Shown: piece after piece, positions 2,521 through 26,516 of the stretch
Position numbering within the stretch: the stretch's first letter is position 1
Layout: every line of letters starts with the position of its first letter
Assembly (NCBI GenBank): GCA_020692355.1
Contig: JAIMKP010000028.1
Span: 1 to 38,531, forward strand
Length of the DNA: 38,531 bases
From: Desulfosporosinus sp.
GTDB lineage: Bacteria > Bacillota > Desulfitobacteriia > Desulfitobacteriales > Desulfitobacteriaceae
Direction: 5' to 3'
The notes under the pieces: model-generated
What the model was told of the DNA's origin: nothing
The model's database searches: none
Seen by the model: only the letters and a program-made list of their open reading frames with translations
Translations under genes and position numbers: made by a program

Positions 2521-4071
2521 ATGCTTTTTGAAACCCACGCCTGGGTCACCCTCGACAACGCCGTCGCTGTCTATAACGTCTACAGCGACGAGTTGGTCGC
2601 CACCATCCCGGTAGGCGTTGCACCTTATTTCCCTAAGCGCACGCCGGATGGAACGAAGGTGTTGGTGCCCAACTTTGGCTCCAACACCGTCTCCGTCGTC
2701 TGCACAGCCACAAACAGGGTCTTGGCCACCATCCCGGTGGGTATCGCCCCAACTGCGGTCGATATTGACCCAACGAGCACGACCGCTTATGTTACCAACT
2801 CTGGAAGCGGAACGGTCTCAGTCATCAGCATCCCGACGGACAGCGTCGTGGGAACGATCTCCGTCGGCACAGGCCCGGTGGATGTTCACGTTGCCCGTGA
2901 CGGCAGCCGAGTCTATGTTACCAACGGCGGCAGCAACACGGTCTCTGTAATCGATCCGACGACTAACACGGTCATCCAAACGATCAGTACGGGAACCTCC
3001 CCCAATGGCTTGACCACCAGCCTCGACAACAGCAAACTTTTCGTGGTCAACAGCGGCAGCAACAACGTCAGTGTCTTCAACACGACAACTTATGCCCTCT
3101 TAACGACGATTCCCGTGGGCACGGCCCCGCAGAAGATTGCTGCCAATCCGGTAAATCCTCTTTATCTTTATGTCAGCAATTTCGGTTCCAACAGCGTCAG
3201 TGTCATTTCCACAACGACCCTCGGTGTCGTGGCTACGGTACCTGTCGGCATAGGGCCACGCGGCCTTGCCGTAACCGGAGATGGAACGCAGGTCTGGGTC
3301 GCGAATGAAGGCGACAGCTCCCTGAGCATCATCAGTACCGCAACCAATACGATTGCGGCCGCGATTCCTACCGCTTTCCCACCCCGTGGTGTAACGGTTG
3401 GCCGTGTCGGCTCCGCGCTTTCGCCCGGTGAACCCATTGATCTAACGGCTCCTTATCAACTCGAGGAGGTCACCGAATCGGTCTGCGTCATCGTGGAAAA
3501 AGTCTACGCGAGCTGTCAACAGCGGGAGTGCTTCCCGACCATCACCATTTCGCTGCCTACCGGAACCCCGCCCTTCACCTTTGTGAGCTTGACGTTTGCG
3601 AATGGTGTGATCGTGCCTGGCAGCATTCTCATTACCCCGATTCCGTCCAGGCCCAATTTCTCCAGGGCTCAATTCACGATTCAAATTCCGTACTCGCTAA
3701 CCCTACGGGATGCAACGGGTGCCATCTTCACGATTCCAGGTACTTTGCCGGATATCACAAAAGACATCGTTCTTTACTTCCCGCCGACTCGACCGGAATT
3801 CGATCTCAACCTGAGGGTCGAAACCCGGAGTGAACTGCTCGCGAGCCCGCTCTTCACCGCGACCTCTGTTGAAATTGCGGTCGGCAGCTTCGTGGTCAGC
3901 AAGGTCACCGGCTTGGTTCAGCTTCTCGTCCCGTCCTTTGGCTACTGCCCAGAGCCTCCGGTCTGTGAAGAGTTCCCAGTCGGCCCCTCCAATCCTTGTG
4001 TTACCTTCTTCGATACCTCCCTTACCCCATTTCCATCCGACTTCTTCCCTCCGCAGCTTGACAACTGCTAA
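2521..4071 (+). CDS. YVTN beta-propeller surface protein with C-terminal spore-type domain
   Basis: 516 residues. Residues about 5-300 are a run of about 42-residue YVTN/YncE-type blades (recurring VYVTNGGSNTVSVID, TIPVGTAP), about seven in all, which should close into a beta-propeller. Residues about 315-490 form a separate beta-rich domain opening with VCVIVEKVYASC and a further Cys pair. The Cys-rich opening recalls proteins of clostridial spore surfaces, but that is an inference. There is no obvious signal peptide, as for most coat proteins that assemble from the mother cell. AAGGGGGG lies 10 nt before the ATG. A strong hairpin (4082-4114) follows the stop. It may be a structural target of the neighbouring glycosyltransferases. 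Confidence 0.8.
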   Translation: MLFETHAWVTLDNAVAVYNVYSDELVATIPVGVAPYFPKRTPDGTKVLVPNFGSNTVSVVCTATNRVLATIPVGIAPTAVDIDPTSTTAYVTNSGSGTVSVISIPTDSVVGTISVGTGPVDVHVARDGSRVYVTNGGSNTVSVIDPTTNTVIQTISTGTSPNGLTTSLDNSKLFVVNSGSNNVSVFNTTTYALLTTIPVGTAPQKIAANPVNPLYLYVSNFGSNSVSVISTTTLGVVATVPVGIGPRGLAVTGDGTQVWVANEGDSSLSIISTATNTIAAAIPTAFPPRGVTVGRVGSALSPGEPIDLTAPYQLEEVTESVCVIVEKVYASCQQRECFPTITISLPTGTPPFTFVSLTFANGVIVPGSILITPIPSRPNFSRAQFTIQIPYSLTLRDATGAIFTIPGTLPDITKDIVLYFPPTRPEFDLNLRVETRSELLASPLFTATSVEIAVGSFVVSKVTGLVQLLVPSFGYCPEPPVCEEFPVGPSNPCVTFFDTSLTPFPSDFFPPQLDNC

Positions 4072-4081
4072 TCCCCCTATT

Positions 4082-4118
4082 TCTGGGGGCGGGCAGGCAG
4101 ATCCCGCCCCCAGATTTT
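4082..4118 (+). terminator. Intrinsic terminator after the beta-propeller gene
   Basis: A perfect 12-bp GC-rich stem (TCTGGGGGCGGG / CCCGCCCCCAGA) with a 9-nt loop is followed by TTTT. The short T-run suggests partial termination, allowing some read-through to the next gene. Confidence 0.65.
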
Positions 4119-4235
4119 GGGTCTCCGTCCCCTTAGGGACTTTCCTAAGACAAAAAGAGAGAGCTGTTTTTCACGGCAGCCCTCTCTTACACCTTATTCG
4201 GGTTCGCGATACGTGATAAAAAGGATGTGATTTTC

Positions 4236-5753
4236 ATGCTGGCCCCGAAGCGCATGGCGCCTACCCCCTTGTTCTTTCTCTATAAAGAGCGTCAATATTA
4301 CTTGCAGGTCAGTGCCCTAGGCGTTTCACTCTATGCACGAGGGGAGACAAAACCTCTTTATCAACTGCAAGAACCGATCCTTCTCGCTCACGGAAACGCG
4401 GGCAACCAGTTGACGATTCATCTGGCCATCCTCAAAGCCAACGGTGAACTTTGTTATGTCCTCATCCCCCAGGGCGGAACCCCACAAACCAGTGTCCTGA
4501 CCCAACTCGATGTTCGGGCAACAAAATACCGTCGCCTCATCCTGCTTCCGCGTGGTGAGATGGTACATATCTTCTACGCCTATTCCCATCAGACCATTCC
4601 CGAACTCTGGTATATCGAGCACCGCCTCTGGACGGGCAAAGCCTGGCAGAGCATGCGTTTAGGGGAGATTGTCCACCCGCGCTCCCCCCTCTACCATGTC
4701 GCCTTAGACAGTCAGGGAAACATCCATTATCTCGGGATGACCTTCCAAGGACGCCAGTCTCTCCTCATTCAAAACCGCTTTCACGGAACCTTTCATCTCT
4801 GGGGAAACCCTGTGCAAACTCTGACCATCCCCAAAGAGATCGTGGACATGGCTGCGATTCTTACCCCAGACAATACCTATCACCTCTTTTTGGCCGCCAA
4901 AGACCAAAACGGTTTCGAAATCCACTGGGCGAAACGCTTCAACGCCCAGGACATTTCGGGGCAATGGCAGATGTCCTCCGCCCCTATAAAATCCGTTCCC
5001 GGCCCTTGGGGAAGCATAGGTAGCATGGAGTTGTTCGGGAACCTCTGGCTGCTCATCAAAGCCGATCAAGAATACCTTCTACGTCACGAAGGGGACATCT
5101 GGCGCCAAACTGCGAATCAAGTTCGCCACAAACCGTTGGAATTGATCCGACTGGAAGATAAAAGTTTCTACCAAGCAGCCTGGCTCGTAGATGGTGTTGA
5201 ACCTTTCGCTCCTCTCTTCCACCAACAACTCGGGCTCACGCCAAAATGGATCCGCCCAGAATTTCCCCATCCCCAGCCTGTAACCGCTGCACTCGCAATT
5301 CCAGAGCACTACCTTAATCGCGAGATTGTCGAAACTTCTGTCCCCAGCAAAGCCATGCCGCCGGAGGTACAAGGCCCTGCGGTTGTCACATCTGACCAAG
5401 GCTCTCGGGATCCTCTAAATCAAGCCATCGAACCGCTTCTTGAACGTCTCTCGGCCATTGAAGACACATTGCACGCGGCTGCCCGCCAAATCGAGAGCCT
5501 AGAGCAAGACAACACCCATCTCCAAGAACTGCAAACCAACCAGTCAACCCGAGTTCAGGATTTACAGGGAAAGTATCAAGCCGAGATTCGAGCCCTTACA
5601 GCGCATTACCAGTCTGACATTGAGGGACTTTCAGCACATTATGAATCTCAGATTGCGGAACTAAAAAAAGAACAGGCGATTGGCCTGCGCTTACTTGAAG
5701 ATGCCATAACCCAACATGAAGAGAAAGGATTTTGGAACAGATGGTTCAAGTAA
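4236..5753 (+). CDS. Propeller-like protein with C-terminal coiled coil
   Basis: 505 residues from ATG 4236, which has AAGGA 10 nt upstream; a GTG at 4227 overlaps that site and is less likely. Residues about 10-340 are beta-rich with repeated Trp/Tyr-containing strands separated by short turns (HIFYAYSHQ, YHVALDSQGNIHYLG, YHLFLAAKDQNG), suggesting a propeller or sialidase-like fold without recognisable catalytic residues. A Pro-rich linker follows. Residues about 390-490 are a heptad-rich coiled coil (LERLSAIEDTLHAAARQIESLEQD onward) ending in GFWNRWFK. No family was recognised. The stop overlaps the start of the next small gene by 13 nt, so the two are probably co-translated. Confidence 0.75.
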   Translation: MLAPKRMAPTPLFFLYKERQYYLQVSALGVSLYARGETKPLYQLQEPILLAHGNAGNQLTIHLAILKANGELCYVLIPQGGTPQTSVLTQLDVRATKYRRLILLPRGEMVHIFYAYSHQTIPELWYIEHRLWTGKAWQSMRLGEIVHPRSPLYHVALDSQGNIHYLGMTFQGRQSLLIQNRFHGTFHLWGNPVQTLTIPKEIVDMAAILTPDNTYHLFLAAKDQNGFEIHWAKRFNAQDISGQWQMSSAPIKSVPGPWGSIGSMELFGNLWLLIKADQEYLLRHEGDIWRQTANQVRHKPLELIRLEDKSFYQAAWLVDGVEPFAPLFHQQLGLTPKWIRPEFPHPQPVTAALAIPEHYLNREIVETSVPSKAMPPEVQGPAVVTSDQGSRDPLNQAIEPLLERLSAIEDTLHAAARQIESLEQDNTHLQELQTNQSTRVQDLQGKYQAEIRALTAHYQSDIEGLSAHYESQIAELKKEQAIGLRLLEDAITQHEEKGFWNRWFK

Positions 5754-5968
5754 CACCTCAAACTAATGTCGGCGAACTCCTCTCCTTCTACCCTGAAACC
5801 GGACCCATATTCCGCAAATTCAGCATTCCCGTCTTTGGCTGAGGGGCTAAGGCTTATCTCATCATGAGCGTTGAGCAGGCTGCCCAACGTCATCACCTCA
5901 ACACCGCCTCCCTTGTCCAGGCTCTGCAAGTCGCCATCTGGCGAAAACTTGGGACATCACCCCGATGA
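5741..5968 (+). CDS. DUF1858/ScdA_N-like small protein with in-frame TGA (candidate selenoprotein)
   Basis: The reading frame runs 75 codons if the TGA at 5840-5842 (codon 34) is read through. Before the TGA it reads VTPQTNVGELLSFYPETGPIFRKFSIPVFG and after it GAKAYLIMSVEQAAQRHHL, a continuous DUF1858/ScdA-N pattern (a 'V-E-L--YPE---F-K' helix, a Cys/Gly turn, then '--EQAA'). The TGA sits in the turn where family members carry Cys. The frame overlaps the upstream gene by 13 nt, and its final TGA forms ATGA with the start of the downstream gene, so both junctions are intact. A hairpin follows the TGA (arms 5852-5856/5872-5876 and 5858-5861/5865-5868, loop about 20 nt away). Its loop lacks the G expected of bacterial SECIS elements, so a nonsense mutation is not excluded. 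Confidence 0.55.
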
Positions 5969-6915
5969 AAATTCTCTTTCTCAATGATGCCCCCCTCATC
6001 ACCTACGGGTTCGCCTCAGGCTTGGCACCGGGTGACGAATTTCGTATCCTCCCGGTGCGGCTTCCTGACTGGGAAAGCCGTTTGCGAAACCTCATTTTAT
6101 CTTGGCGTCCGGACTTCGCCTTTGCCGATGGCGTCTCCATCTCAACCATAGCTCGCAAACTCTTTGCCTTTTTAAAGAGCCGCAACATCCCCTTAGTCTA
6201 TTGGGCCATTGACGATCCGCCAGACTTCCCGAATATGTCCCTACCGCTTTCACGGGGAGCGGCCTTAACCCTCACCCCTGCTGAAGAATGCCTTCCCCGT
6301 TACCAAAAACAGCGGGTCAATGCCCGCTTCTTGCACTTTGCCTGTAATCCTTCCTTTCATCACCCAACCTCTCCCTCGGTTCGCTATGCCAGTGACTTCC
6401 TCCTCGTGGGGAATTATTATACCTCCTACCCGCAGCGCAAGATTGGCCTTGAGATTCTGCTTACCCCTCTTCTTGCCTCAGACTATACGCTCCAAGTTTA
6501 CGGGAATGAACACTGGCTTCAGAATACGGATCACTACCCGTTACCCGATGGGGTCTACAAAGGTTACCTCCCTTATGCCGAGCTTCCGACCGCCTATTCT
6601 TCAGCCAAGATCGTGCTGGGGATTAACTCCGTGATCGACTCTCCGACCATGATGAGCATGCGCATCTTCGAAACCTTAGGCTGTGGCGCATTTTGCCTCA
6701 CACACCATTCCCCTGCTATCGAACGTTACTTCCGCAACCACGAACACCTCGTCTGGAGCCGCAATCCGGACGAAACCCCAGAACTTGCCCATTATTACCT
6801 GGTTCGGAAGGATCTGCGCCAAAAAATTGCCCGCCAAGGGCAAGCGGAAGTTTACCGCCTGCACACTTACACCCACCGGATTGAATCGCTGCGGGGGTAT
6901 CTGGAACAGCTTTAA
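5965..6915 (+). CDS. CgeB-like spore glycosyltransferase
   Basis: 316 residues. It resembles the CgeB/DUF3880 family, linked in Bacillus to the outermost spore layer. The N-terminal half contains the PDFAFADG and YWAIDDPP segments typical of that family. The C-terminal half has the signature SMRIFETLGCGAFCLT and ends with helices that cap a GT-B donor domain. The start ATG overlaps the preceding stop as ATGA, so it is translationally coupled to the TGA-containing small gene. It is cytoplasmic, with no signal peptide. It probably adds sugars to a spore-surface protein made by this island. It ends directly against the converging toxin gene with no spacer. Confidence 0.85.
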   Translation: MKILFLNDAPLITYGFASGLAPGDEFRILPVRLPDWESRLRNLILSWRPDFAFADGVSISTIARKLFAFLKSRNIPLVYWAIDDPPDFPNMSLPLSRGAALTLTPAEECLPRYQKQRVNARFLHFACNPSFHHPTSPSVRYASDFLLVGNYYTSYPQRKIGLEILLTPLLASDYTLQVYGNEHWLQNTDHYPLPDGVYKGYLPYAELPTAYSSAKIVLGINSVIDSPTMMSMRIFETLGCGAFCLTHHSPAIERYFRNHEHLVWSRNPDETPELAHYYLVRKDLRQKIARQGQAEVYRLHTYTHRIESLRGYLEQL

Positions 6916-7221
6916 CTATTTAATGAGATTTGTAATATCCATCTTTGCATAAATAATTCTATGTATTTCCACCTCGTGTGCTGTCACTACATAGAATACG
7001 AGGTATTGTTTTACATTCAACATTCTGTATTCAGCTTCAAGTGGTTGTATGGATTGATATAACTGACAAGAATAAGGAAATTGTTGAAGCCGATGTATAG
7101 ATTGCTCAAAAGCATCAACCAAATCCATTGCTGCCTTGGGTGCTTTAAGGTTGTCTGCAATGTAATTTGTAATATTCCTTAAATCCTTTTGTGCTAAAGG
7201 TAGGTACTTCAACTTATACAT
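6916..7221 (-). CDS. RelE/ParE-family toxin
   Basis: 101 residues, the usual size for a RelE/ParE toxin. The pattern is typical: YLPLAQKDLRNITNYIADNL (N-terminal helix), then LQQFPYSCQLY, EYRMLNVKQYLVFYVV and a final EIHRIIYAKMD strand. Family members either cleave mRNA at the ribosome or poison gyrase, and the sequence alone does not say which. Its start overlaps the antitoxin stop by 8 nt, the standard antitoxin-first order. The pair sits inside the glycosyltransferase island on the opposite strand with AT-richer sequence than its neighbours, suggesting separate acquisition. Confidence 0.88.
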   Translation of the reverse strand: MYKLKYLPLAQKDLRNITNYIADNLKAPKAAMDLVDAFEQSIHRLQQFPYSCQLYQSIQPLEAEYRMLNVKQYLVFYVVTAHEVEIHRIIYAKMDITNLIK

Positions 7222-7501
7222 TACCCTCTCCTAGCTTATCAGCAAGGCTTGCTCTCAAATCTGAAAATACTTCTTCGTGAGAATAGCGTAGATCAGTAGA
7301 TTTTGCTTCAAGTTCTGCTTCTTTCAACGTAAAGTAAATTTCACTTTCAAATAGCTTGCGTTCATAAGCTTCAATGCTCATAACAACCATATCGCCATAC
7401 CCATTTTTGGTCAAGAAAACTGGTTCTGATGTTTCATGCACAATCTTGGAAATCTCGGCAAACCTATTGCGTAAATCTGAAACTGGTCTAATCTGTGGCA
7501 T
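7214..7501 (-). CDS. Phd/YefM-family antitoxin
   Basis: 95 residues from the ATG at 7501, which has GAGGGG 9 nt upstream. A GTG at 7510 in the same frame is less well placed. The N-terminal half (PQIRPVSDLRNRFAEISKIVHETSEPVFLTKNGYGDMVVMS) is the DNA-binding Phd fold: conserved 'PVSDLR', then 'PV-LTKNG---VV-S'. The C-terminal acidic helical tail should wrap and neutralise the toxin encoded just downstream. It is expected to repress its own promoter, and a palindrome lies there at 7525-7553. Confidence 0.9.
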   Translation of the reverse strand: MPQIRPVSDLRNRFAEISKIVHETSEPVFLTKNGYGDMVVMSIEAYERKLFESEIYFTLKEAELEAKSTDLRYSHEEVFSDLRASLADKLGEGNV

Positions 7502-7515
7502 AAAATTCACCCCTC

Positions 7516-7553
7516 ATTATTATATTAGCATAATTTTATCATAATTACGCTAA
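7516..7553 (-). promoter_or_regulatory. Toxin-antitoxin operator and -10 box
   Basis: A 29-bp near-palindrome (TTAGC...GCTAA, 7525-7553) lies immediately upstream of the antitoxin, partly abutting a consensus TATAAT on the minus strand at 7521-7516. This is where an autoregulating Phd-type antitoxin would bind. The role is inferred from position and symmetry. Confidence 0.65.
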
Positions 7554-7639
7554 GACGTCAACCTGCCTTAGACCCATGACTAACATTCATAACTGTCGTC
7601 CTTGCACCCCAGCCATATTACTCATAAAGGAGCGCCATT

Positions 7640-8632
7640 ATGAAAGTCCTATTCCAAATCCGCCCAGATTATCTGCAAAACCCGGCTGGAGACACGGTGC
7701 AGATCGTGTCCACCGGACGCGCATTAAAAGCCATAGGAGTCGATGTCGCCATCTCGACGGATCCCAATGTACTACTTGTAGATTTTGACCTCGTTCACAT
7801 CTTCAACCTAACTCGGATTAAGGAAAGCTACATGTACTTTCTCAACGCCCAGAAGCAAAAAAAGCGGGTCGTCGTTTCCCCCATCTATTGGAACCCCGAC
7901 GCTTTCCTCCATCGGAAAGAAGCCAAGCCCCAAGACTTAGCCTCCTGGAAATTCACCCAGCCGATGCGGGCTCGGGTTGTCCGAGAATGTGATCTCCTGC
8001 TCCCGAACAGCCATCTGGAAATCGAAAACTTATCGGGAGATTTCCCGAACCATGCCCCTTTTGAAGTAATACCCAACGGCTTTCCCGACAGCTTTATCGG
8101 TATAGGCCCTGAAGCCTTGCGCCAGCGTTTTCCGACATTACCGCAAGACTTCGTCCTCTGCGTGGCCCGCATCTCCCCGCGCAAAAACCAACACGAACTG
8201 GCTAAAGCCTGCAAGGAACTGGATCTTCCTCTTGTACTCGCGGGGCCAGTGAATGACCGCCATTATTTTAACCTCAGCCGTTCTTTTTCCAATGTAATCT
8301 ACCTGGGCACGCTGCACGGTGAAATTCTGGCCTCCGCCTACGCTGCAGCAAAAATCCATGCTCTTCCCAGTTGGTTCGAGACTCCTGGGCTTTCCAGCCT
8401 GGAAGCGGCCGCCTGCGGGACAGTAGTCCTCAGCACGGACCAAGGGAGCCCCCGTGAATACTTTAAGGATATGGCCGTGTATGTCCGGCCACTGGAGAAT
8501 GAGACCTTACAGAGAGGACTAGAACAAGCCCTCAATGCCTCACCCACACCTTTAATGCACCATGTCCGTGCAAATTACCCTTGGTCTAAGGTCGCCCGTT
8601 CTAGCCTTGAGGCTTATACAAGTATGGTATAA
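7640..8632 (+). CDS. Glycosyltransferase family 4
   Basis: 330 residues. The start ATG follows AAAGGAG at good spacing. The N-terminal acceptor domain opens KVLFQIRPDY with a short loop before AGDTVQ. The C-terminal donor domain shows VIPNGFPDSF, LCVARISPRKNQHELAKA and the E-x7-E region ETPGLSSLEAAACGTVVLST, all diagnostic of GT4 retaining enzymes. It is cytoplasmic. It stands alone between the toxin-antitoxin unit and an IS-type end and is followed by a terminator hairpin, so it is probably its own transcription unit. Its theme matches the island; substrate unknown. Confidence 0.88.
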   Translation: MKVLFQIRPDYLQNPAGDTVQIVSTGRALKAIGVDVAISTDPNVLLVDFDLVHIFNLTRIKESYMYFLNAQKQKKRVVVSPIYWNPDAFLHRKEAKPQDLASWKFTQPMRARVVRECDLLLPNSHLEIENLSGDFPNHAPFEVIPNGFPDSFIGIGPEALRQRFPTLPQDFVLCVARISPRKNQHELAKACKELDLPLVLAGPVNDRHYFNLSRSFSNVIYLGTLHGEILASAYAAAKIHALPSWFETPGLSSLEAAACGTVVLSTDQGSPREYFKDMAVYVRPLENETLQRGLEQALNASPTPLMHHVRANYPWSKVARSSLEAYTSMV

Positions 8633-8634
8633 AA

Positions 8635-8658
8635 AAGAGAGCATTCGCTCTCTTAATT
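8635..8658. terminator. Terminator-like hairpin
   Basis: AAGAGAGC-ATTC-GCTCTCTT is a perfect 8-bp stem with a 4-nt loop starting 2 nt after the glycosyltransferase stop. The A- and T-rich flanks would serve both strands. Confidence 0.6.
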
Positions 8659-8725
8659 CGATCGGTATAATCTCATGCGCTAGACTGGATCGCTTCGAAT
8701 TACTCCATTTATCCAAGCGTTTAAG

Positions 8726-8894
8726 ACTCCCACTTCTATAAGTGGGAGTGGGAATTCTGTTCTCTGCTTCGGTGACGATAGTCTCCAGTGGAGAGTATCG
8801 CCGAGCCGCCTTTCCCAATAGAAACACTTAGCGGCGACGGAGGTAGACTCCCCCACCGAAGTCTCGATGTTCAGCTTTAGCTGAACGAGTTCAC
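8726..8894 (+). mobile_element. IS200/IS605-type non-coding end (solo remnant)
   Basis: Three structured parts lie in series with no ORF of note: hairpin ACTCCCACTT-CTAT-AAGTGGGAGT (8726-8749), a branched stem around 8766-8806 (CGATA...TATCG enclosing CTCC...GGAG), and the end hairpin plus GAGTTCAC (8869-8894) shared with 1-26. The first hairpin recurs twice at 38464-38526. This matches the right-end region of IS605 elements, which also encodes the guide-RNA scaffold of TnpB. No transposase is attached, so it is a solo end or non-autonomous derivative. The family call is inferred. Confidence 0.5.
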
Positions 8895-8905
8895 TACAAA
8901 TCACC

Positions 8906-9727
8906 TTAGGCCTGCCCTTGGAAGAAAATGTTTAAGGTGACCGCACTCGCGGCATTGACCGCACTGTAATAGAGCCGAGAATATTTTAAAAATATCGAAG
9001 AAACAAACGTCGCCAACCCGTTTTGGTTAATGGTTACATTCCCTGTCGGATCATCCTGCCAAGTTGAAGCATTCGGGCTGAGCTGAAGTTTAACCAGGGC
9101 CTGGGCACCAGTGACCGTCGCACTGTTGACCACACTGAGGGTCCAAGTCTTTAGCCCGAGCACCGTGTAAGCGGTATCCGGCGTCCCGGTCGTATCAATG
9201 ATATTGGCCCTTATGGTCGATACATCAGTGGTTCCAAGGTCGGAAACCACGGTTCCTGTGACCAACAACCCACCCGTTGGGGGCGTAATAGAAAGTCCGG
9301 AAGCCGATGCCGTAACCGTCAGGCCATTTGCAGGGGCCGTGACGGCCAGTCCCGTGGAAGTGATGCTTAACCCATTCGTCGGGGGAGTTATCGCCAGACC
9401 GCCTGTGGGTGGGGTGATCGCCAGGCCGCCTGTGGGTGGGGTGATCGCCAAACCTGATGCAGGGGCCGTTACAGTTAAGCCGTTCGTTGGGGCCGTAACG
9501 GCCAAGCCCGTGGAGGTGATACTCAAACCGGCCGTTGGGGGGGTTATCGAAAGGCCGCCTGTGGGTGGAGTTATGGCCAAACCATTCGGCGGAGCGGTAA
9601 TGGCTAAGCCTAGGGAGGTGATCCCTAGATTTCCGCTGGTATCCGCCGTAATTGCAATGTTGTTGCCGGCAAAGATCTTGATGCGCGCTTGATCAGGAAC
9701 GTCTTGAAAAATTTTAAAATTTGGCAT
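8906..9727 (-). CDS. Thr-rich repeat surface protein with DUF6385-like C-terminus
   Basis: 273 residues. Residues about 35-155 are about 14 copies of a 9-residue repeat of the form GLAITPPTG (27 bp in DNA), with shortened copies GLSITST at two places that give a higher-order period. Residues about 165-273 are a beta-sandwich-like domain ending FLKYSRLYYSAVNAASAVTLNIFFQGQA, closely resembling the end of the protein at 16682-17698 and the DUF6385 type. Thr/Pro-rich repeats are classic O-glycosylation carriers, and the gene is flanked by glycosyltransferases, so it is a good acceptor candidate. GAGGAGG lies 13 nt upstream of the ATG. There is no signal peptide, as for coat or exosporium proteins. 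Confidence 0.8.
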   Translation of the reverse strand: MPNFKIFQDVPDQARIKIFAGNNIAITADTSGNLGITSLGLAITAPPNGLAITPPTGGLSITPPTAGLSITSTGLAVTAPTNGLTVTAPASGLAITPPTGGLAITPPTGGLAITPPTNGLSITSTGLAVTAPANGLTVTASASGLSITPPTGGLLVTGTVVSDLGTTDVSTIRANIIDTTGTPDTAYTVLGLKTWTLSVVNSATVTGAQALVKLQLSPNASTWQDDPTGNVTINQNGLATFVSSIFLKYSRLYYSAVNAASAVTLNIFFQGQA

Positions 9728-17863: not shown

Positions 17864-17893
17864 GAAAAAAGCAGCCTCCCTAGGGAAACTGCT
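17864..17893 (-). terminator. Terminator of the trpP-paaK operon
   Basis: On the minus strand AGCAG-T-TTCCC-TA-GGGA-GG-CTGCT forms a hairpin followed by six T residues, 11 nt after the paaK stop. This is a classic intrinsic terminator and marks the operon's end. Confidence 0.85.
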
Positions 17894-17903
17894 CGATCCA
17901 ACC

Positions 17904-19193
17904 TTATTCCTCCCGCTCGTCAAATACACGTCGGCTCTTTTTCTCACTCCGAGGCAGGGAACCGAAGGTAACTACCTCGACATCCACGAGGATGCCGATG
18001 CGTGACTTGATGTTGTGCTGACACGCATGCGCTACTTCCTCCCGGTTCGCCCCAGTCTCCCCTTCTACCTTAAGCAAAAGGGTATCCTTTCCTTGATGGC
18101 GAGTGAGTACGATTTTATATTCACTGCTGGCCCCGTCCGTCATTCGCAGCACATGGTCAATCTGACCCGGATAAATATTGACCCCTTTGATTTTAATCAT
18201 GTCATCAGTACGGCCGAGAATCCGATCGATGCGGGGATAAGGGCTGCCGCAGCGGCAGGGTTGCAGATGCAGGCGGGTAATATCATGGGTTCGGTAACGC
18301 AAAAGTGGCATCCCTTCTTTGGTTAAGGTCGTGATCACGAGCTCCCCTTCTTCACCTGGAGACAGCGTCCTGCCTGTGGTCGGGTCAATGATTTCAAAGA
18401 GGAGGTGATCCGACCAGAAATGAATGCCCTCATGTTCGGAACAGTCAATCCCGATTCCCGGCCCATAAATCTCCGTCAATCCGTATATATCAAAGCTTTC
18501 GATCTGGAGAATGTCCTCGATCCGCTGACGCATCTTTTCTCCCCAGCGTTCTGAGCCAAAAATTCCTAAGCGGAGTTTCAACTTCTCCCGGATTCCCCGC
18601 TTCTGAATTTCTTCGGCCAAGAGAAGACCGTAGGATGAGGTGCCGATGAGCACGGTCGTCCCTAAATCCAGCATCATTTCCAACTGTTTTTCCGTATTTC
18701 CCGGCCCAGTCGGAATGGCCATCGCTCCCAGGCGCTCAACCCCGGCCTGAAAACCCGTGCCCGCTGTCCAGAGCCCGTATCCTGGCGTGACCTGGACACG
18801 ATCCTTACGGGTCACACCCGCCATAGCCAGCGAGCGGGCCATCATGTCCGCCCAAATGTTCACATCCTCTTGCGTATAGGGTACGATGATTGGCTTGCCG
18901 GTCGTCCCGGAGGAGGAGTGAATACGGACGACCTCTGCTTCGGGTACGGCCATCAGCCCGAGCGGGTAACCATGGCGCAGTTCCGCCTTGGTCGTAAAAG
19001 GAACCTGGGCCAGATCCTCGAGCGTGCGAACATTCGTCGACACAATTCCGGCTTGGTCTAATTTTTCTCGATAAAACGGTGAGGTGCGATAAATTCGCTC
19101 CATGAAGTCAGGCAACATCGCTTCAGCCCGATCATGGAATCCAATTTCCTCTCTCACATAGGGTAACTCTGCTAATGCTTTACTTACGGTCAT
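17904..19193 (-). CDS. paaK: Phenylacetate-CoA ligase (aryl-acid:CoA ligase)
   Basis: 429 residues, normal for PaaK. It activates an aryl acetate (phenylacetate, possibly indole-3-acetate) with ATP and CoA in the cytoplasm. Visible motifs are the P-loop SSSGTTGKP (93-101), YGLTEIYGPG (about 240), RYRTHD and the C-terminal GRTDDMIKIKGVNIYPGQID hinge. The ATG overlaps the iorB stop by 14 nt, with GGGGTG as ribosome site. IorAB interconverts arylpyruvates and aryl-CoA, so PaaK would either feed it from free aryl acids (salvage) or work in reverse of that route. TRAP-type control of the operon favours salvage. Last gene of the operon. Confidence 0.93.
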   Translation of the reverse strand: MTVSKALAELPYVREEIGFHDRAEAMLPDFMERIYRTSPFYREKLDQAGIVSTNVRTLEDLAQVPFTTKAELRHGYPLGLMAVPEAEVVRIHSSSGTTGKPIIVPYTQEDVNIWADMMARSLAMAGVTRKDRVQVTPGYGLWTAGTGFQAGVERLGAMAIPTGPGNTEKQLEMMLDLGTTVLIGTSSYGLLLAEEIQKRGIREKLKLRLGIFGSERWGEKMRQRIEDILQIESFDIYGLTEIYGPGIGIDCSEHEGIHFWSDHLLFEIIDPTTGRTLSPGEEGELVITTLTKEGMPLLRYRTHDITRLHLQPCRCGSPYPRIDRILGRTDDMIKIKGVNIYPGQIDHVLRMTDGASSEYKIVLTRHQGKDTLLLKVEGETGANREEVAHACQHNIKSRIGILVDVEVVTFGSLPRSEKKSRRVFDEREE

Positions 19194-19782
19194 GGAATGT
19201 CACCCCTATCTTTCGACCCCGTTCGAATGCCTCTTGATTCATGGCTACCGCCTTCTTTGGTACGGATTCTAGAATCACCTGGAGGAGATCATCACGCCGA
19301 AACGGCAGCCCCGCCAAGGCTGAGAGCACGCCTAAGAGCACGACATTGACCGTTTTTGAGTTTCCAGCTTCCATAGCCAGCGCGTCGGCATCCACCAGCA
19401 TGACCCGTTTCGTTTTTTGGTAGAGACTCTCCCGGATCGGTTCCTCAGCATAATGAGAAAGCCCCAGAGAAACCGAAGCTGGCACCACTTTACCTTGATT
19501 GGCGATGATAACCCCGCCCGGCTTCAACTTCATCAAGGCCCGCGCGGTCTCCGCCAACTCCAATCCGAAAAGAATATCCGCCTGCTGATCCGGTACCAAG
19601 GCCCCGTAGAGTTGTGAACCAATACGCACATGACTCACCACAGAACCCTCCCGTTGGGCCATCCCAATCGTTTCAGTTGTGCGGACTTCCCACCCTGCGG
19701 CCATGGCCGCCTGAGCGATAACCCGAGAGGCCAAAACGCTTCCTTGCCCACCGACTCCGGCGATTACGATGTCAAGCTTCAT
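19180..19782 (-). CDS. iorB: Indolepyruvate ferredoxin oxidoreductase, beta subunit
   Basis: 200 residues; start ATG overlaps the iorA stop as TGATG. This is the gamma-domain-type small subunit: IVIAGVGGQGSVLASRVIAQAA at the N-terminus, then ETIGMAQREGSVVSHVRIG and the C-terminal helix region of IorB. With IorA it forms the TPP-dependent enzyme that converts indole-, phenyl- and hydroxyphenylpyruvate to the aryl-acetyl-CoA with reduction of ferredoxin, and runs in reverse when reduced ferredoxin is plentiful. A GGGGGTGAG stretch just upstream is the ribosome site. It overlaps paaK downstream by 14 nt. Confidence 0.95.
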   Translation of the reverse strand: MKLDIVIAGVGGQGSVLASRVIAQAAMAAGWEVRTTETIGMAQREGSVVSHVRIGSQLYGALVPDQQADILFGLELAETARALMKLKPGGVIIANQGKVVPASVSLGLSHYAEEPIRESLYQKTKRVMLVDADALAMEAGNSKTVNVVLLGVLSALAGLPFRRDDLLQVILESVPKKAVAMNQEAFERGRKIGVTFHDRK

Positions 19783-21668
19783 CACCGACTCACCCCCTGG
19801 ATAGCCTTTTGGGGACAGATTTGGCTGCAGATCCCGCAGCCTGAACAGTTATCCTGAATGACGACCAGCGTTTTGTCCTTGGCCATGGCTGGACACCCGA
19901 GTTTTTTCAGACAGAGTTCACAACCAGTACACGCTTTTGGATCCACGACATACTTCACTTCCGGTTTGACCAAAGCGACACATTCCCGCTTGGCGATCAC
20001 CACTGCTGTACCCTTGTAGACCATTGCCTCCCGGGCAGCTTCCTTCATGGCTTTCAGGTCATAGGGATCCACTTCGCGCACGAATTCCACTCCACAGGCC
20101 TTGACGATCCCCTGGATGTCGATGGCCTTCGGGTTCGGCCCGGTCGCGGTTCGTTCCAAACCCGGATGGGGCTGATGTCCCGTCATGGCGGTCGTCCGGT
20201 TGTCCAGGATCACAATCGTGATATCGGCTTGATTGTAGACCGCGTTAATCATTCCTGGAATCCCGGAATGAAAGAACGTCGAATCCCCGATGAAAGCCAC
20301 GTGCTTGCGCCCTGGCTCCACCTTGCTCATCCCGATCGCCTGCGTCACACCTGCTCCCATACAGAGGCAGGTATCCAGCATATCTAACGGGGGAATCGTC
20401 CCTAGGGTGTAACAGCCAATATCCCCGGTAAAGACCGCATCTTGCCGTCGTCCTACCTCCTTAAAGGCGTAGAAACTCGCCCGGTGCGGGCAGCCGGCAC
20501 AGAGTACCGGGGTACGCAAGGGCAGGGGAGGAAGTTCAAAAGAGTGTTCATGGGCTGCCTCAACGGCGCTAGCAGCCTCTGTCGTTTCCATAGTACCCAA
20601 GGTACTTTGAACCCAAGCGTGGGGTGGTTGTGCCAAGTCCTTCGGCTCTCTTTGCCTCAGAAAAGCCTTGATGATAGCGATAACCTTATCAACATTGAGT
20701 TCCCCTTCCCGAGGAACCCTTCCATCTTGTTTTCCAGATACCTCAATTTTGGCTTCTTCTTTCCAAGCCATCTGGATGAGCTGGTCTTCGACCACCGGTT
20801 CCTGCTCTTCGACCACTAATATGCGTGCACAGTGTGCAAACAGATCCAGTACAGGTTGGGATGGCAGGGGATAGGGTGTCCCTATCTTGAGAATAGACGG
20901 ATGTATACCCAAAGTTTCGCAAGCTTCCATCACATAATTGTACGATACCCCTGAGGCCACAATTCCCTCGCTTGACTCAGGGTTTAGGACTAAATGGTTA
21001 AAGGGCGAATGACTAAATTTCTCTGCCAAATCCTTCTGAGCCTGGTTTAATAAGATATGCTTTTTATAGGATAGGCTAGGGAAAATGACCCACTTCGGAT
21101 CTTTTTCAAAACGATAGTCTCTGGCGGGAAGATTCGCCGTCTCCATGGCGACATCCTGAGCCATGTGAGCCGTACGGGTCGTCGGCCGCAGGATGACCGG
21201 TAGATGAAATTCCTCCGAAAGGACAAACGCTGCCTTCACCATCTCCTTGGCCTCCTGAGGGGACGAAGGATCAAACACCGGAAGTTTGGCAAATGCCGCA
21301 AATTTACGCGAATCCTGCTCGGTTTGGGAACTGTGAGGTCCAGGATCATCGGCCACCACCAAGACCAAGCCCCCTTTGATCCCGATATAAGCGAGGCTCA
21401 TCAAGGGGTCGGCTGCGACATTGAGTCCCACCTGTTTCATCGCTGCCAAGGCCCTCGCCCCCGTGTAGGCCGCGCCTGAGGCGACTTCTAAAGCCACTTT
21501 TTCATTCACTGACCACTCGGCGTGAAAGCCATATTCTGGAGCCAAGTGCGAAAGCGTCTCCAGAACTTCAGATGACGGTGTCCCTGGATATGCTGCTGCA
21601 ACCGCCACTCCAGCTTCAACCGCCCCCCAGGCGATCGCTTCGTTACCCATCAACAACCTTTTCTCCAT
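19782..21668 (-). CDS. iorA: Indolepyruvate ferredoxin oxidoreductase, alpha subunit
   Basis: 628 residues from the ATG at 21668, which has GGAGG five nt upstream. An upstream in-frame ATG at 21680 lacks a site because the GGAGG lies inside it. Order of domains: pyruvate-oxidoreductase N-terminal part (AAYPGTPSSEVLETL, WSVNEKVALEVASGAA), TPP-binding part (GDIGCYTLG, GAGVTQAIGMSK, FIGDSTFFHSGIPG), and two [4Fe-4S] sites at the C-terminus (CTGCELCLKKLGCP and CSGCGICSQICP). The Cys pattern is complete, so it should be active. It overlaps iorB and follows the ecfT gene after a 44-nt gap. Confidence 0.96.
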   Translation of the reverse strand: MEKRLLMGNEAIAWGAVEAGVAVAAAYPGTPSSEVLETLSHLAPEYGFHAEWSVNEKVALEVASGAAYTGARALAAMKQVGLNVAADPLMSLAYIGIKGGLVLVVADDPGPHSSQTEQDSRKFAAFAKLPVFDPSSPQEAKEMVKAAFVLSEEFHLPVILRPTTRTAHMAQDVAMETANLPARDYRFEKDPKWVIFPSLSYKKHILLNQAQKDLAEKFSHSPFNHLVLNPESSEGIVASGVSYNYVMEACETLGIHPSILKIGTPYPLPSQPVLDLFAHCARILVVEEQEPVVEDQLIQMAWKEEAKIEVSGKQDGRVPREGELNVDKVIAIIKAFLRQREPKDLAQPPHAWVQSTLGTMETTEAASAVEAAHEHSFELPPLPLRTPVLCAGCPHRASFYAFKEVGRRQDAVFTGDIGCYTLGTIPPLDMLDTCLCMGAGVTQAIGMSKVEPGRKHVAFIGDSTFFHSGIPGMINAVYNQADITIVILDNRTTAMTGHQPHPGLERTATGPNPKAIDIQGIVKACGVEFVREVDPYDLKAMKEAAREAMVYKGTAVVIAKRECVALVKPEVKYVVDPKACTGCELCLKKLGCPAMAKDKTLVVIQDNCSGCGICSQICPQKAIQGVSR

Positions 21669-21712
21669 ATCTTCCTCCATTGATCCACTAATGCTCGAAC
21701 AAAGTGAGTTCT

Positions 21713-22504
21713 CTACATGCCGAACCCTTGAAGCCTAATCATCGCGCCGAAAGCGACAACGAAAACCATGATGGCACCTGCGGCCACATCCATGATCCCC
21801 GCTTTCAGTTCATAAAGGTGTGTGCGCGGACCACGGCCATATCCTCGCGTTTCCATGGCCAGTGCCAGACGTTCCGCCTTTTTTAGGGACATCAACACCA
21901 ATGGCACAGCAATCGGCAGGTAAGCCTTGACTTTGCGAATTGGATTTGCTCCTTCTAAGACAAAAGCCCTGGCTTTTTGGGCATCGGCAATTTGACGGAG
22001 GTCATTTAAGAAACTGGGAATAAAGCGGAGCGCTGACAAGATCATAAAGGCCACATCATTCGGAAGATTAGCCTTCTCCACCAAGGCGGTCAGCAAATCT
22101 CGCGTGCGCGTCACTGCTAAGAAAACCAAGTAGCTTGATACGATAGCCAGCATCCTCAGCCCCATCGCCAGACCCAGAAATACGCCGCGTTCGGTGACCG
22201 GCAGGTAGCCTTTGCCCAAAGGAATCAGATGAAAATAGGTCTGACCTTCGTCGTAAAAGAAGACCTGAATCATAAAGAGAATAATGGCAAAGACCAAAAG
22301 CCCTTTGAACAAGCGGGCAATGAAGGGAAATACCCCAGCCCCATAGGCGGTGAGCCAAACTGAAAGCAAAATAACCGCGACATAAACAGGGTTCGTGAAG
22401 AGCAGGCTCAAAATGAGGATGACCAGCGCCCAACTTAACTTCGTTATGGGGTGTAGGCGGTGAATGAGCGAGTCTCCGGGTTGGTATTCCAGCATATCAG
22501 TCAT
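21713..22504 (-). CDS. ecfT: ECF transporter transmembrane component EcfT
   Basis: 263 residues, CbiQ/EcfT family. Several hydrophobic helices (LSWALVILILSLLF, LLVFAIILFMIQVFFY, VPLVLMSL) alternate with cytoplasmic coupling helices. The two Ala-Arg-type coupling motifs that seat on the ATPases are present (QKARAFVLEG and ALAMETRGYG). AAGGAGGG precedes the ATG, which overlaps the preceding ATPase stop as ATGA. Together with the two ATPases and the TrpP-like protein it completes one dedicated ECF importer, expected in the plasma membrane. Confidence 0.93.
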   Translation of the reverse strand: MTDMLEYQPGDSLIHRLHPITKLSWALVILILSLLFTNPVYVAVILLSVWLTAYGAGVFPFIARLFKGLLVFAIILFMIQVFFYDEGQTYFHLIPLGKGYLPVTERGVFLGLAMGLRMLAIVSSYLVFLAVTRTRDLLTALVEKANLPNDVAFMILSALRFIPSFLNDLRQIADAQKARAFVLEGANPIRKVKAYLPIAVPLVLMSLKKAERLALAMETRGYGRGPRTHLYELKAGIMDVAAGAIMVFVVAFGAMIRLQGFGM

Positions 22505-23319
22505 AGCGCCACCCTCCTTGGCAGAAGTTCGGCTACGAGGTCTTCCGGTGTGAGGATATGCTGCAGGCCGAGCCTGGACGCCAGCTGGATGATTTGCGGA
22601 GGTTCGACCAGGGTGCGGCTTAATACATCGGGTTGGGCAAAAACCGTATCCACTGACCCATCAAGCAGGAGCGTTCCTTCACAGAGAACCAGAACCCGCT
22701 GGGCATACCGTGCGACTAAGGCCATATCATGCGTGATGAACAGAATGGTGTGCCCCTTACGGTTTAACTCTCCCAGCAAATCCATCATTTCTAAGGCTTC
22801 CGTTTGATCCTGCCCGGTGGTCGGTTCATCCAAGACGATGATCTCCGTCTCCATGGCAAGGACAGAGGCCAAAGCCAAACGCTGGCGTTCACCCCGGCTT
22901 AACCCTTGGGGAGAATCCTCCGCCCGCTTCTCAAGCCCTACTGCTTGCAGGGCTGCCTTGACCCGGTTTTTAACCTCCGGTTCCTCAAACCCGAGATTCC
23001 TAGGGCCGAAGGCAGCCTCTTTAGCGACGGTATCATGAAAGATCTGATGATCAGGATTTTGAAAGACGAATCCTACCGTGCGGGCAAGGGACGAAACTTT
23101 CTGGCCACGGGTTTCCTTACCGTAAATCCGTATCCTGCCACTGCTTGGGCGCAGTAACCCGTTGAAATGTTTGGCAAGGGTGGTTTTCCCAGCCCCATTT
23201 TGCCCGATCAGAGCTACAAATTCCCCCTGCCTCACTTGGAAATTAAGGTCTTTTAAAGCCTGAAACCCGTTCGGGTAAACATGGCTCAGCGCTTCTACTG
23301 TAAGCACCGCGTGATTCAT
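22501..23319 (-). CDS. ecfA: ECF transporter ATPase (second, switch-His intact)
   Basis: 272 residues from the ATG at 23319, which overlaps the previous gene as ATGA; a GTG at 23337 is less likely. ABC ATPase motifs: Walker A GQNGAGKTT, Q-loop VFQNPDHQ, a degenerate signature LSRGERQ (consensus LSGGQ), Walker B IIVLDEP and switch His in FITHD. This subunit therefore keeps the switch His but has a weak signature, while its partner has the opposite pattern. Such asymmetry is known in heterodimeric ABC transporters with one degenerate site. It energises uptake by the TrpP-like component. Confidence 0.93.
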   Translation of the reverse strand: MNHAVLTVEALSHVYPNGFQALKDLNFQVRQGEFVALIGQNGAGKTTLAKHFNGLLRPSSGRIRIYGKETRGQKVSSLARTVGFVFQNPDHQIFHDTVAKEAAFGPRNLGFEEPEVKNRVKAALQAVGLEKRAEDSPQGLSRGERQRLALASVLAMETEIIVLDEPTTGQDQTEALEMMDLLGELNRKGHTILFITHDMALVARYAQRVLVLCEGTLLLDGSVDTVFAQPDVLSRTLVEPPQIIQLASRLGLQHILTPEDLVAELLPRRVAL

Positions 23320-24182
23320 AGGCGTTTCCCTTTCCACTGCCGAATCAATGAAAGCCCCTCTTCCACCGTCAAAGGCACCTCCGACAAACGAAAATGCGCT
23401 TCCCGTGCCAGGACATGGGCGAACTCAGCCACTTGCGGGATGCGAATGCCCCAACCGGAAACCCTTTCATCCGCCAGCACCTGGTTTGGCCGACCTGCAG
23501 CAGCAATACATCCCTCATGCAAAACCAAAAGCCGATCCAAGTAAGGAGCCAGCTGATCCACTTTTTGTTCAAAGATGATGATCGTCATGCCTAAAGCCTT
23601 GTTGAATTGCAAAAGCAATTGAAAAAAATCCCGGCTCCCCACCGGGTCAAGTTCCGATGCCGGCTCATCCAGCACCAAAACTTGCGGCCGCATGGCCAGA
23701 ACCGAGGCCAAGGCGACTCTCTGTTTCTGCCCGCCCGAGAGCGACTTCAAGGAGCGATTCTGCAGCTGGTCGATCCCCACCGCATCCACCGCCTCCCGAA
23801 TCCGCTCTTTAATCAAGGATGGAGCAGCACCGGCGTTTTCCAGTCCGAAAGCAATCTCCTCCTCGACGGTCAGGGATACCATCTGGGTTTCCGGATCTTG
23901 AAAGACATATCCAATCGTCTCAGACAGGGCCGGGAGAGTATACTCCTTCAGGAGCACACCGCGCAAGGATACACTCCCCGCCATCCTCCCCGCTTGAGCA
24001 TGGGGGATAATCCCGTTCAGGCAGAGGGAAAGCGTGGTTTTGCCGGCTCCTGCCGGGCCGCAGATTCCGATGAACTCTCCCTCCCGCACCCTGAAGCTCA
24101 CGTCATTCAAGGCCGGACGCTGACCCTGAGGATAGTAAAAGATAAGGTTCTCGATATCCATGAGTGCGGTTTGTTCTATCAC
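23316..24182 (-). CDS. ecfA: ECF transporter ATPase (first, switch His replaced by Gln)
   Basis: 288 residues; start GTG at 24182 with GGGAG upstream. Walker A GPAGAGKTT, Q-loop VFQDPETQ, intact signature LSGGQKQ, Walker B VLVLDEP. The switch position normally reads E-H in this family, but here it is TIIIFEQKVDQL, so Gln replaces the catalytic His. Its partner keeps that His but has LSRGE as signature. It pairs with the second ATPase to power the ECF importer. The gene lies 57 nt after trpP and overlaps the next gene by 4 nt. Confidence 0.92.
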   Translation of the reverse strand: MIEQTALMDIENLIFYYPQGQRPALNDVSFRVREGEFIGICGPAGAGKTTLSLCLNGIIPHAQAGRMAGSVSLRGVLLKEYTLPALSETIGYVFQDPETQMVSLTVEEEIAFGLENAGAAPSLIKERIREAVDAVGIDQLQNRSLKSLSGGQKQRVALASVLAMRPQVLVLDEPASELDPVGSRDFFQLLLQFNKALGMTIIIFEQKVDQLAPYLDRLLVLHEGCIAAAGRPNQVLADERVSGWGIRIPQVAEFAHVLAREAHFRLSEVPLTVEEGLSLIRQWKGKRL

Positions 24183-24239: not shown

Positions 24240-24788
24240 TCAGTTCGGATTGTTCGTGTTTAAAATCTTCTGAGCTGGCAAGTAAAGCACATAGGCAATA
24301 ACAGCATTAATCACAGACATGGGCAACACAACGAAGGCAAAAGCACTCAGTGCTGCAGCGACTTTCCAGACCAAAAGAACCTTGGTAATAAACACATAAA
24401 CACTCCCACTCGCAAGCGTACCCAAAAAGGTGGCCAAGATGGGCTTAATAAAATACTCAGACACTTTAACTTTGGGCAGTACTCGAATCATCAGGTAAGC
24501 AACTAGGGCTCCGGTCGGTTCGCTAATCAGGTTAAGATAAGGAATCGCCGATTTGGAGGTGAGCATGCTCACCACCCCGGCAACCAAGCCGATGACCAAG
24601 GCCCCGCTCAAGGTCGGGCGGGTCAGAAGAATCGCTAAGCAATACATCGCGATCACAAAATTCGGTGTAATGCCAAAAGCAGGGGGAACAAACATCCGTA
24701 AAGCCGCACCAATGGCAATAAGCACGGCGACGATGGCAATTGAACTTAAGTTACTTTTCCGACCAACATTTTCCAACGGGGTTTGCAT
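24240..24788 (-). CDS. trpP: TrpP-like tryptophan S-component of the ECF importer
   Basis: 182 residues with five or six hydrophobic helices. The stretch IGAALRMFVPPAFGITPNFVIAMYCLAILLTRPTL and the following ALVIGLVAGVVSMLTSKSAIPYLN are close to Bacillus TrpP (YhaG), the tryptophan transporter. The family link plus the TRAP-type leader ahead of it make tryptophan the likely substrate; that is an inference. It is followed by its own two ATPases and EcfT, so it is the substrate-binding unit of a dedicated ECF system. Two purine-rich sites (AGGAGG and GGGAGG) precede the ATG. First gene of the operon. Confidence 0.85.
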   Translation of the reverse strand: MQTPLENVGRKSNLSSIAIVAVLIAIGAALRMFVPPAFGITPNFVIAMYCLAILLTRPTLSGALVIGLVAGVVSMLTSKSAIPYLNLISEPTGALVAYLMIRVLPKVKVSEYFIKPILATFLGTLASGSVYVFITKVLLVWKVAAALSAFAFVVLPMSVINAVIAYVLYLPAQKILNTNNPN

Positions 24789-24822
24789 AAAAAATACCTC
24801 CCTTTCCTCCTAAACACAAGTA

Positions 24823-24844
24823 AGCCAGGCAAAGTTGCCTGGCT
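24823..24844 (-). terminator. Candidate attenuator hairpin
   Basis: AGCCAGGCAA-CT-TTGCCTGGCT is a 10-bp near-perfect stem between the triplet block and the trpP ribosome site. The following bases (TTACTTGTGTTT) are only moderately U-rich, so termination strength is uncertain. It competes with a pairing between its 3' arm and the triplet region. Confidence 0.5.
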
Positions 24845-24858
24845 ATAGATCAATAGAT

Positions 24859-24901
24859 CTCAGCTCGCCTCGGCTCAACTCAACTCAACTCTGCTCAACT
24901 C
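24859..24901 (-). promoter_or_regulatory. Nine GAG triplets in 5-nt register (TRAP binding site)
   Basis: On the minus strand GAG occurs at 24901-24899 and then every five bases to 24861-24859, nine copies with spacers TT, CA, TT, TT, TT, CC, GC and CT. Two UAGs sit just 5' of it (24908-24906, 24904-24902). Exact periodicity of this kind is the known recognition pattern of TRAP. Confidence 0.85.
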
Positions 24902-24999
24902 CTATCTATTCAGTTTTTGATTTCCCTAGGATTCAACTCGCTCAACTAAACTCTATATACCCTAAAGCTATCTCAGCTTTGTGGTATATCTTATGCACG

Positions 25000-25028
25000 A
25001 TTATACCAAAGGCCACGCTTGTTGTCAC
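25000..25028 (-). promoter_or_regulatory. Sigma-A promoter of the trpP operon
   Basis: On the minus strand GTGACA (25028-25023, five of six consensus bases) and TATAAT (25005-25000) are separated by 17 nt. The predicted start at about 24993 puts the leader's first stem-loop five bases from the RNA 5' end, as in the Bacillus trp leader. Confidence 0.8.
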
Positions 25029-25125: not shown

Positions 25126-25193
25126 AAAGGAGTACCCCCAGAGGGTACCATCATGTCGATCAACAAAATCGAGCAGAGCGGGGAGAAAGAAAA

Positions 25194-25421
25194 ATGAAAA
25201 TTGCTTATGTCAATGCGAATCAATGTGACCGTTCGCCCATGTGCCCATCGAGGCGTTCCTGTCCAAGCAAAGCCATGACCCAGGAGAAGCTCGGCTTTCT
25301 CCGGCGTGGGCCGGCCGTAGTTAACCCAGACCTCTGTTCAGGCTGTGGCACCTGCGTCAAAATGTGCCCCCATGGTGCAGTTGTCATGAAATCAGGAAAG
25401 AAAAAGGCAGCCTCCCGTTAG
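25194..25421 (+). CDS. 2[4Fe-4S] ferredoxin-like protein
   Basis: 75 residues. The second cluster site is standard, CSGCGTCVKMCP (residues 48-59). The first is unusual: Cys11, Cys17 and Cys23 in CDRSPMCPSRRSCP, with wider spacing than the normal C-x2-C-x2-C-x3-C, so it may hold a differently ligated or absent cluster. It is expected to be a cytoplasmic electron carrier. It is divergent from the trp operon and could serve IorAB as partner, but that is inference. GGGGAGAAAG lies before the ATG. Confidence 0.75.
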   Translation: MKIAYVNANQCDRSPMCPSRRSCPSKAMTQEKLGFLRRGPAVVNPDLCSGCGTCVKMCPHGAVVMKSGKKKAASR

Positions 25422-26102: not shown

Positions 26103-26516
26103 TTACACATCTTGCTCCCCCCTTTCTTTCTGAGACTCAATATACTGCCGGATAGCAGTCTCCGATACTTCACTGACGGATGTCACGAAATAGGACGGAT
26201 TCCATAAATGACCGCCCCACAGCCTTTTCTTTAACTCCGGCATCTCCTTGAACAGCAGGCGAGCCGAGTAGCCTTTAACGGTTTTGACGATATCCGGGAT
26301 AAAATGTTGCGGCGAACAGTCGAGAAGCAAATGCACATGATCAGGCATTACCTCCATCGTGATAATCTCAAACTTATGTTCCGTGGCGATATCCCGGAAA
26401 ATCTTCTTTAATCGCTCAGCACGCATGTCTGTTAAGAGCGCATGTCTGTATTTAACACAGAACACCAAGTGGTAACGCAATGCGTAGACATAACCGCGTC
26501 CGTGCTTAATTTCCAA
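26103..26516 (-). CDS. tnpA: IS200/IS605-family transposase TnpA (Y1)
   Basis: 137 residues, full length for the family. It cuts and joins single-stranded DNA at the element ends. The HUH metal site is H60-V-H62 in MPDHVHLLLD, and the catalytic Tyr is Tyr125 in AIRQYIESQK. The conserved YHLVFCVKYRHALL and LWNPSYFVTSVSEVS are intact. No stop or frameshift is seen, so it may still be active although its tnpB partner is eroded. Nearby structured ends were not resolved with certainty. Confidence 0.94.
   Translation of the reverse strand: MEIKHGRGYVYALRYHLVFCVKYRHALLTDMRAERLKKIFRDIATEHKFEIITMEVMPDHVHLLLDCSPQHFIPDIVKTVKGYSARLLFKEMPELKKRLWGGHLWNPSYFVTSVSEVSETAIRQYIESQKERGEQDV

Follow-up and report, generated by a model that had tools for sequence, protein, structure and literature searches.

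The closest described systems are two TRAP targets of Bacillus subtilis and the Trp T-box leaders. The B. subtilis trp leader carries a (G/U)AG array of eleven triplets that overlaps an antiterminator, together with a 5' stem-loop and a downstream hairpin. At B. subtilis trpP (yhaG), TRAP blocks the ribosome-binding site, and control is translational (PMC13170310). Trp T-box leaders sense uncharged tRNA-Trp by RNA alone. Among enzymes, an indolepyruvate oxidoreductase and an acyl-CoA ligase form the aryl-acid route to aromatic amino acids in methanogens and rumen anaerobes, and Ior enzymes oxidise indolepyruvate in amino-acid fermenters. Our literature search found no paper for the aryl-acid route in methanogens or rumen anaerobes.

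The window analysed here, a 38,531-nt stretch of Desulfosporosinus sp. DNA, contains a leader that resembles the B. subtilis trp leader in its (G/U)AG array, a TRAP gene in the genome, a 5' stem-loop, a downstream hairpin and a predicted overlap of array and antiterminator, but differs from it in having nine register triplets, a weak U-tract and other genes under control. We consider it quite probable that this leader attenuates, under TRAP control, the transcription of a tryptophan-supply operon whose products import Trp and most likely rebuild it from indoleacetate (Table 1).

Table 1 Features of the leader and operon in the window, and of one comparable locus (L124) in another genome
Feature	Position	Strand	Basis or remark
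Promoter GTGACA-17 nt-TATAAT	25000..25028	minus	11/12 consensus matches; RNA start inferred near 24993
Predicted 5' stem-loop	24955..24989	minus	minimum-energy fold; +5 from inferred RNA start 24993
Four extra (G/U)AG triplets	24937..24953	minus	starts 24953, 24948, 24943, 24939; spacing 5, 5, 4
TRAP-type array (predicted TRAP site)	24901-24859	minus	nine GAG triplets, two-base spacers; starts 24901, 24896, 24891, 24886, 24881, 24876, 24871, 24866, 24861
Attenuator hairpin (putative)	24823..24844	minus	9 pairs, -16.2 kcal/mol
Weak U-tract TACTTGTGTTT	24812..24822	minus	directly after hairpin
Probable ribosome-binding site GGGAGGT	24796..24802	minus	sequence; 7-8 bases before ATG
trpP, tryptophan S-component of ECF-type transporter	24240..24788	minus	PF17099 E 2.8e-17; 63.5 bits, over curated cut-off 27.2
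ECF ATPase 1	23316..24182	minus	PF00005; TIGR04520 1e-67, under its cut-off
ECF ATPase 2	22501..23337	minus	PF00005; TIGR04521 1.4e-78, under its cut-off
ECF T component	21713..22504	minus	PF02361 2.3e-34
iorA, indolepyruvate ferredoxin oxidoreductase alpha	19782..21680	minus	TIGR03336 7.9e-238; equivalog score 790.6, over cut-off 650.9
iorB, beta subunit	19180..19785	minus	PF01558 1.1e-43; TIGR03334 1.3e-56, just below cut-off
paaK-type aryl-acetate CoA ligase	17904..19193	minus	PF14535; TIGR02155 5.1e-129; equivalog score 430.5, under cut-off 646.3
Intrinsic terminator, operon end after paaK	17869..17894	minus	
L124 DctPQM importer + iorAB-paaK under TRAP-type array	about 6084-9204	minus	reverse-complement coordinates 2798-5918

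The nine GAG triplets reported by the first-pass annotation lie in exact 5-nt register, and 200 shuffles preserving the dinucleotides of the whole window gave best in-register runs of 2 or 3; the number of nine-triplet runs expected from composition is 2.6e-10 per genome. A promoter scan recovered the promoter with 17-nt spacing, a quality of site that shuffled sequences contained 0.7 times on average. The claim of a stem-loop five bases from the RNA start agrees with the predicted fold, with the start assumed at 24993, and the four further triplets are found where they had been placed, between stem-loop and array. Rfam yielded no match in the window to a T-box (RF00230) or any other leader family, only a tRNA being over threshold. 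On the promoter side, a small ferredoxin-like frame runs divergently (25131-25382, plus strand), preceded by an operator-like palindrome GTACCC...GGGTAC, and an IS200-like transposase (PF01797) lies nearby at 26103-26516.

The hairpin likewise proved to be present, and GCCAGGC...GCCTGGC terminators resembling it occupy the same place in several relatives. The pairing first proposed for the switch, between AGCCGAGGC inside the triplets and the 3' arm of the hairpin, is possible if one base is bulged out, and it is incompatible with the hairpin. The fold that contains it (-22.2 kcal/mol) nevertheless falls 5.5 kcal/mol short in stability of the one in which the hairpin is kept (-27.7 kcal/mol). 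A more plausible antiterminator would arise from pairing of the array to the hairpin's 5' arm plus loop: in the intermediate transcript, before the 3' arm is made, the array pairs with these parts in all six leaders tested (the studied leader, two other leaders of the same genome and three iorA leaders). At equilibrium the hairpin probability was 0.83 with the array free and 0.96 with the array masked, and most leaders, the studied one included, exhibited no switch; since the hairpin dominates in either state, a working switch would need to be kinetic. Complementarity between each array and its own hairpin exceeded that of swapped arrays weakly (swap test, P 0.04). With Trp plentiful, Trp-loaded TRAP would bind the nine GAG triplets, and the bound array would be unable to pair with the hairpin 5' arm and loop (24844-24823), so that the hairpin would form and transcription into trpP-ecfAAT-iorAB-paaK would fall. 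With Trp scarce, the last array triplets GAGUUGAGCCGAGGC would pair with GCCAGGCAACUU, delaying the hairpin, and the operon would be read.

TRAP might instead act here mainly on translation or RNA decay, with a hairpin that is not a working terminator. The U-tract is weaker than in most relatives, which leaves termination strength uncertain, the hairpin is stable in both folds, and B. subtilis trpP is itself translationally controlled (PMC13170310). However, the TRAP site of B. subtilis trpP overlaps the ribosome-binding site, whereas the array here ends 70 bases upstream of the ATG, before a terminator-like hairpin, and relatives carry terminators with a clear U-tract at the same place. We regard control of this kind as unlikely, and from the distance to the ATG we infer attenuation rather than blocking of the ribosome-binding site.

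The operon has the order trpP-ecfA-ecfA-ecfT-iorA-iorB-paaK. The first-pass annotation had correctly recognised an ECF-iorAB-paaK operon, but had missed that its first gene is trpP and that it closes with an intrinsic terminator. Because the operon starts with trpP, part of it consists of the known TRAP target trpP plus an ECF module. The locus is thus like B. subtilis trpP in joining a TrpP family gene to a predicted TRAP site, and unlike it in that trpP is followed by its own ECF module and then by iorAB-paaK. The paaK product, which scores too low for the phenylacetate-CoA ligase equivalog (TIGR02155), is a predicted PaaK relative. A second Ior-like alpha subunit in the genome (G000:C72:82840-84711, L143) scores below the equivalog cut-off and lies away from any GAG array.

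The first-pass annotation had staked TRAP control on the presence of mtrB, and the genome (3.36 Mb, 101 contigs) contains one mtrB (TRAP) gene (PF02081, E 5.6e-40), whose product can be aligned gap-free to TRAP chains of solved structure over residues 11-75; K37, K56 and R58, which we take to be RNA-contact residues of B. subtilis TRAP, fall in the conserved stretch. Arrays of at least 6 register triplets occur at three sites only in the 3.36 Mb, before trpE, between trpC-trpF and trpG, and in the studied leader; a backward control adds no information to this pattern search, since GAG is unchanged when reversed. The second trp cluster (G000:C57, locus L008 1400-2610) contains trpC, trpF, a GAG array with terminator and then trpG, with a trpE tail that looks broken by eye before trpG and a partial trpA further on. 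The suggested search for anti-TRAP (PF15777) gave no convincing gene in the genome, unlike the Bacillus system, although anti-TRAP is not needed for TRAP control. The sole candidate is a 383-aa frame that matches over only part of its length (26.1 bits, 32.4 with neighbours; cut-off 32). It was rejected, the matching part probably being a DnaJ-type zinc domain; E. coli and other controls match the profile too, and the genome was therefore counted as lacking anti-TRAP.

The trpP-ecfA-ecfA-ecfT order was found across Bacillota, in many cases with iorAB-paaK; Eggerthellaceae have trpP-ecf, Treponema has the set in rearranged form, and a scan of viruses for trpP gave no relative. Among 52 trpP loci elsewhere, with arrays scored at a minimum of 5 triplets, 16 carried an array, and TRAP was encoded in all 16 of those genomes, whereas 34 of the 35 genomes with array-less loci lacked it (Fisher 2e-12, a value that overstates certainty because related genomes are not independent). 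The exception, L047, lies in a genome with TRAP, yet its trpP operon has a Trp T-box and no array. In a Bacillota sample (n = 398), TRAP was present in 47 of 51 array genomes vs. 153 of 347 array-less ones (Fisher 2e-11, overstated for the same reason), and the four array genomes without TRAP (G191, G225, G304, G487) contain largely low-complexity repeats, e.g., GAGCA and GAGAT. Mapped on the TrpP tree, array-bearing loci group together; their distribution requires four changes of state, and branches with good support make two of these unavoidable. No other sampled genome of the window's family has trpP, and TRAP is present in 6 of 46 family genomes, a pattern that would fit acquisition or repeated loss. 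At the array loci examined elsewhere, the next gene is mostly trpE, trpD, trpB-like, DAHP synthase then trpE, trpP or trpG, the names trpD, trpB-like and DAHP synthase being our reading of the sequence. Two six-triplet arrays (L088, L089), found in two large genomes that encode TRAP and belong to one family, have no recognisable Trp gene downstream, the next long frame being epimerase-like, and two further array loci (L090, L093) are simple repeats. Taken from sequence, this evidence strongly supports TRAP control of the leader, with binding that would depend on Trp.

In genomes without TRAP, Trp T-box leaders, a device absent from the studied leader, head the homologous trpP-ecf(-iorAB-paaK) operon. 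A T-box core lies 140-310 bases before trpP in 26 of the 36 array-less loci, with a degenerate one in L028, and the nine loci scanned at a permissive threshold matched the Rfam T-box model with E values of 4e-17 to 0.006, all below the gathering score. The specifier was UGG (Trp) in 26 of 27 by pattern, and the remaining one (L041) also has AAATGGACC at the specifier place. Six T-box operons include iorAB-paaK (L032, L033, L037, L039, L041, L047). TRAP array and Trp T-box both give expression in Trp shortage, and their occurrence on the same operon suggests that tryptophan shortage turns on its enzymes. In L039, a T-box with a GUA (Val) specifier follows paaK at 8782-9034, before an apparent valS.

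Three genomes, all of which encode TRAP, also have an array in front of iorA(B)-paaK where trpP is missing. In two of them (L122, G244; L123, G349), array and terminator lie directly upstream of iorA, with no iorB match between iorA and paaK in L122; in the third (L124, G372), the array precedes DctP, DctQ, DctM, iorA, iorB and paaK. These three genomes support TRAP-type control of iorAB-paaK independently of trpP. They also bear on a reading in which the acids handled by Ior and PaaK are phenylacetate or hydroxyphenylacetate, the purpose is to supply Phe or Tyr, and the link to Trp comes from the shared operon only. PaaK takes its family name from phenylacetate, and the substrate is not readable from sequence; however, the Trp-specific array stands at iorA(B)-paaK where trpP is lacking, and the T-boxes consistently carry a UGG specifier, so that this assignment seems improbable to us.

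Both trpC and trpA are absent in 12 of 25 genomes with these genes, the same twelve for each gene, several of them being related assemblies of unstated completeness; in these twelve, Trp must be imported or salvaged. Six genomes combine TRAP and an array at trpP-ecf-iorAB-paaK with no trpC or trpA found (G103, G108, G110, G111, G112 and G118, with loci L014, L019, L021, L022, L023 and L027). In the studied genome Trp synthesis genes are present, and salvage would therefore be supplementary there. The operon could conversely degrade imported Trp, through TrpP-ECF import, transamination and oxidation by Ior to indoleacetyl-CoA, the leader only preventing overload. The importer in the same operon and the oxidation of indolepyruvate by Ior enzymes of fermenters fit such a pathway, but expression that TRAP with Trp lowers, and that UGG T-boxes raise only in Trp starvation, follows the wrong logic for catabolism. 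Degradation is made very unlikely also by the AMP-forming PaaK, which activates a free acid, by the retention of the operon in genomes without trpC and trpA and by the DctPQM acid importer in one array-controlled copy. That the GAG array is a chance feature or simple repeat without regulatory meaning is ruled out as far as sequence can by the shuffles, the restriction of arrays to Trp genes in the studied genome and the TRAP association, and has a negligible probability even though a few genomes (G207, G487) do contain simple GAGCA repeats.

Under the preferred reading, in which a TRAP attenuator governs tryptophan supply, TrpP-ECF would import Trp, and the enzymes would probably rebuild it from indoleacetate: PaaK would convert indole-3-acetate to indoleacetyl-CoA, Ior in reverse would carboxylate this to indolepyruvate, and an aminotransferase encoded elsewhere would yield Trp. 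PaaK-type, AMP-forming ligases spend ATP in activating the free acid, which fits Ior in the carboxylating direction. From this and the absence of trpC and trpA in the twelve genomes we infer indoleacetate salvage beside import, and with it a putative substrate and direction for the two enzymes. The same two enzyme kinds make up the aryl-acid route, here placed in an operon under predicted Trp-responsive leaders in Bacillota. Our literature search found no published link of iorAB-paaK to TRAP or T-box, and these aryl-acid enzymes appear, as far as searched, to be an undescribed TRAP target.

These results would add aryl-acid enzymes to a TRAP regulon otherwise concerned with Trp synthesis and import. 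They use a natural swap of regulators, in which one operon carries a TRAP array in some genomes and a Trp T-box in others, to tell the purpose of the enzymes. The case is about evenly balanced for a broader view, in which the indoleacetate-to-Trp route, made up of a PaaK-type ligase and reverse Ior along with importers for Trp and in some cases for acids, forms a widespread bacterial Trp-supply module placed under whichever Trp-sensing RNA device the lineage has, TRAP attenuators or Trp T-boxes, including in genomes that lost Trp biosynthesis. The operon names concrete, testable genes for a reductive aryl-acid route in anaerobic bacteria, and its control may explain why TRAP is retained in some genomes without trpC and trpA.
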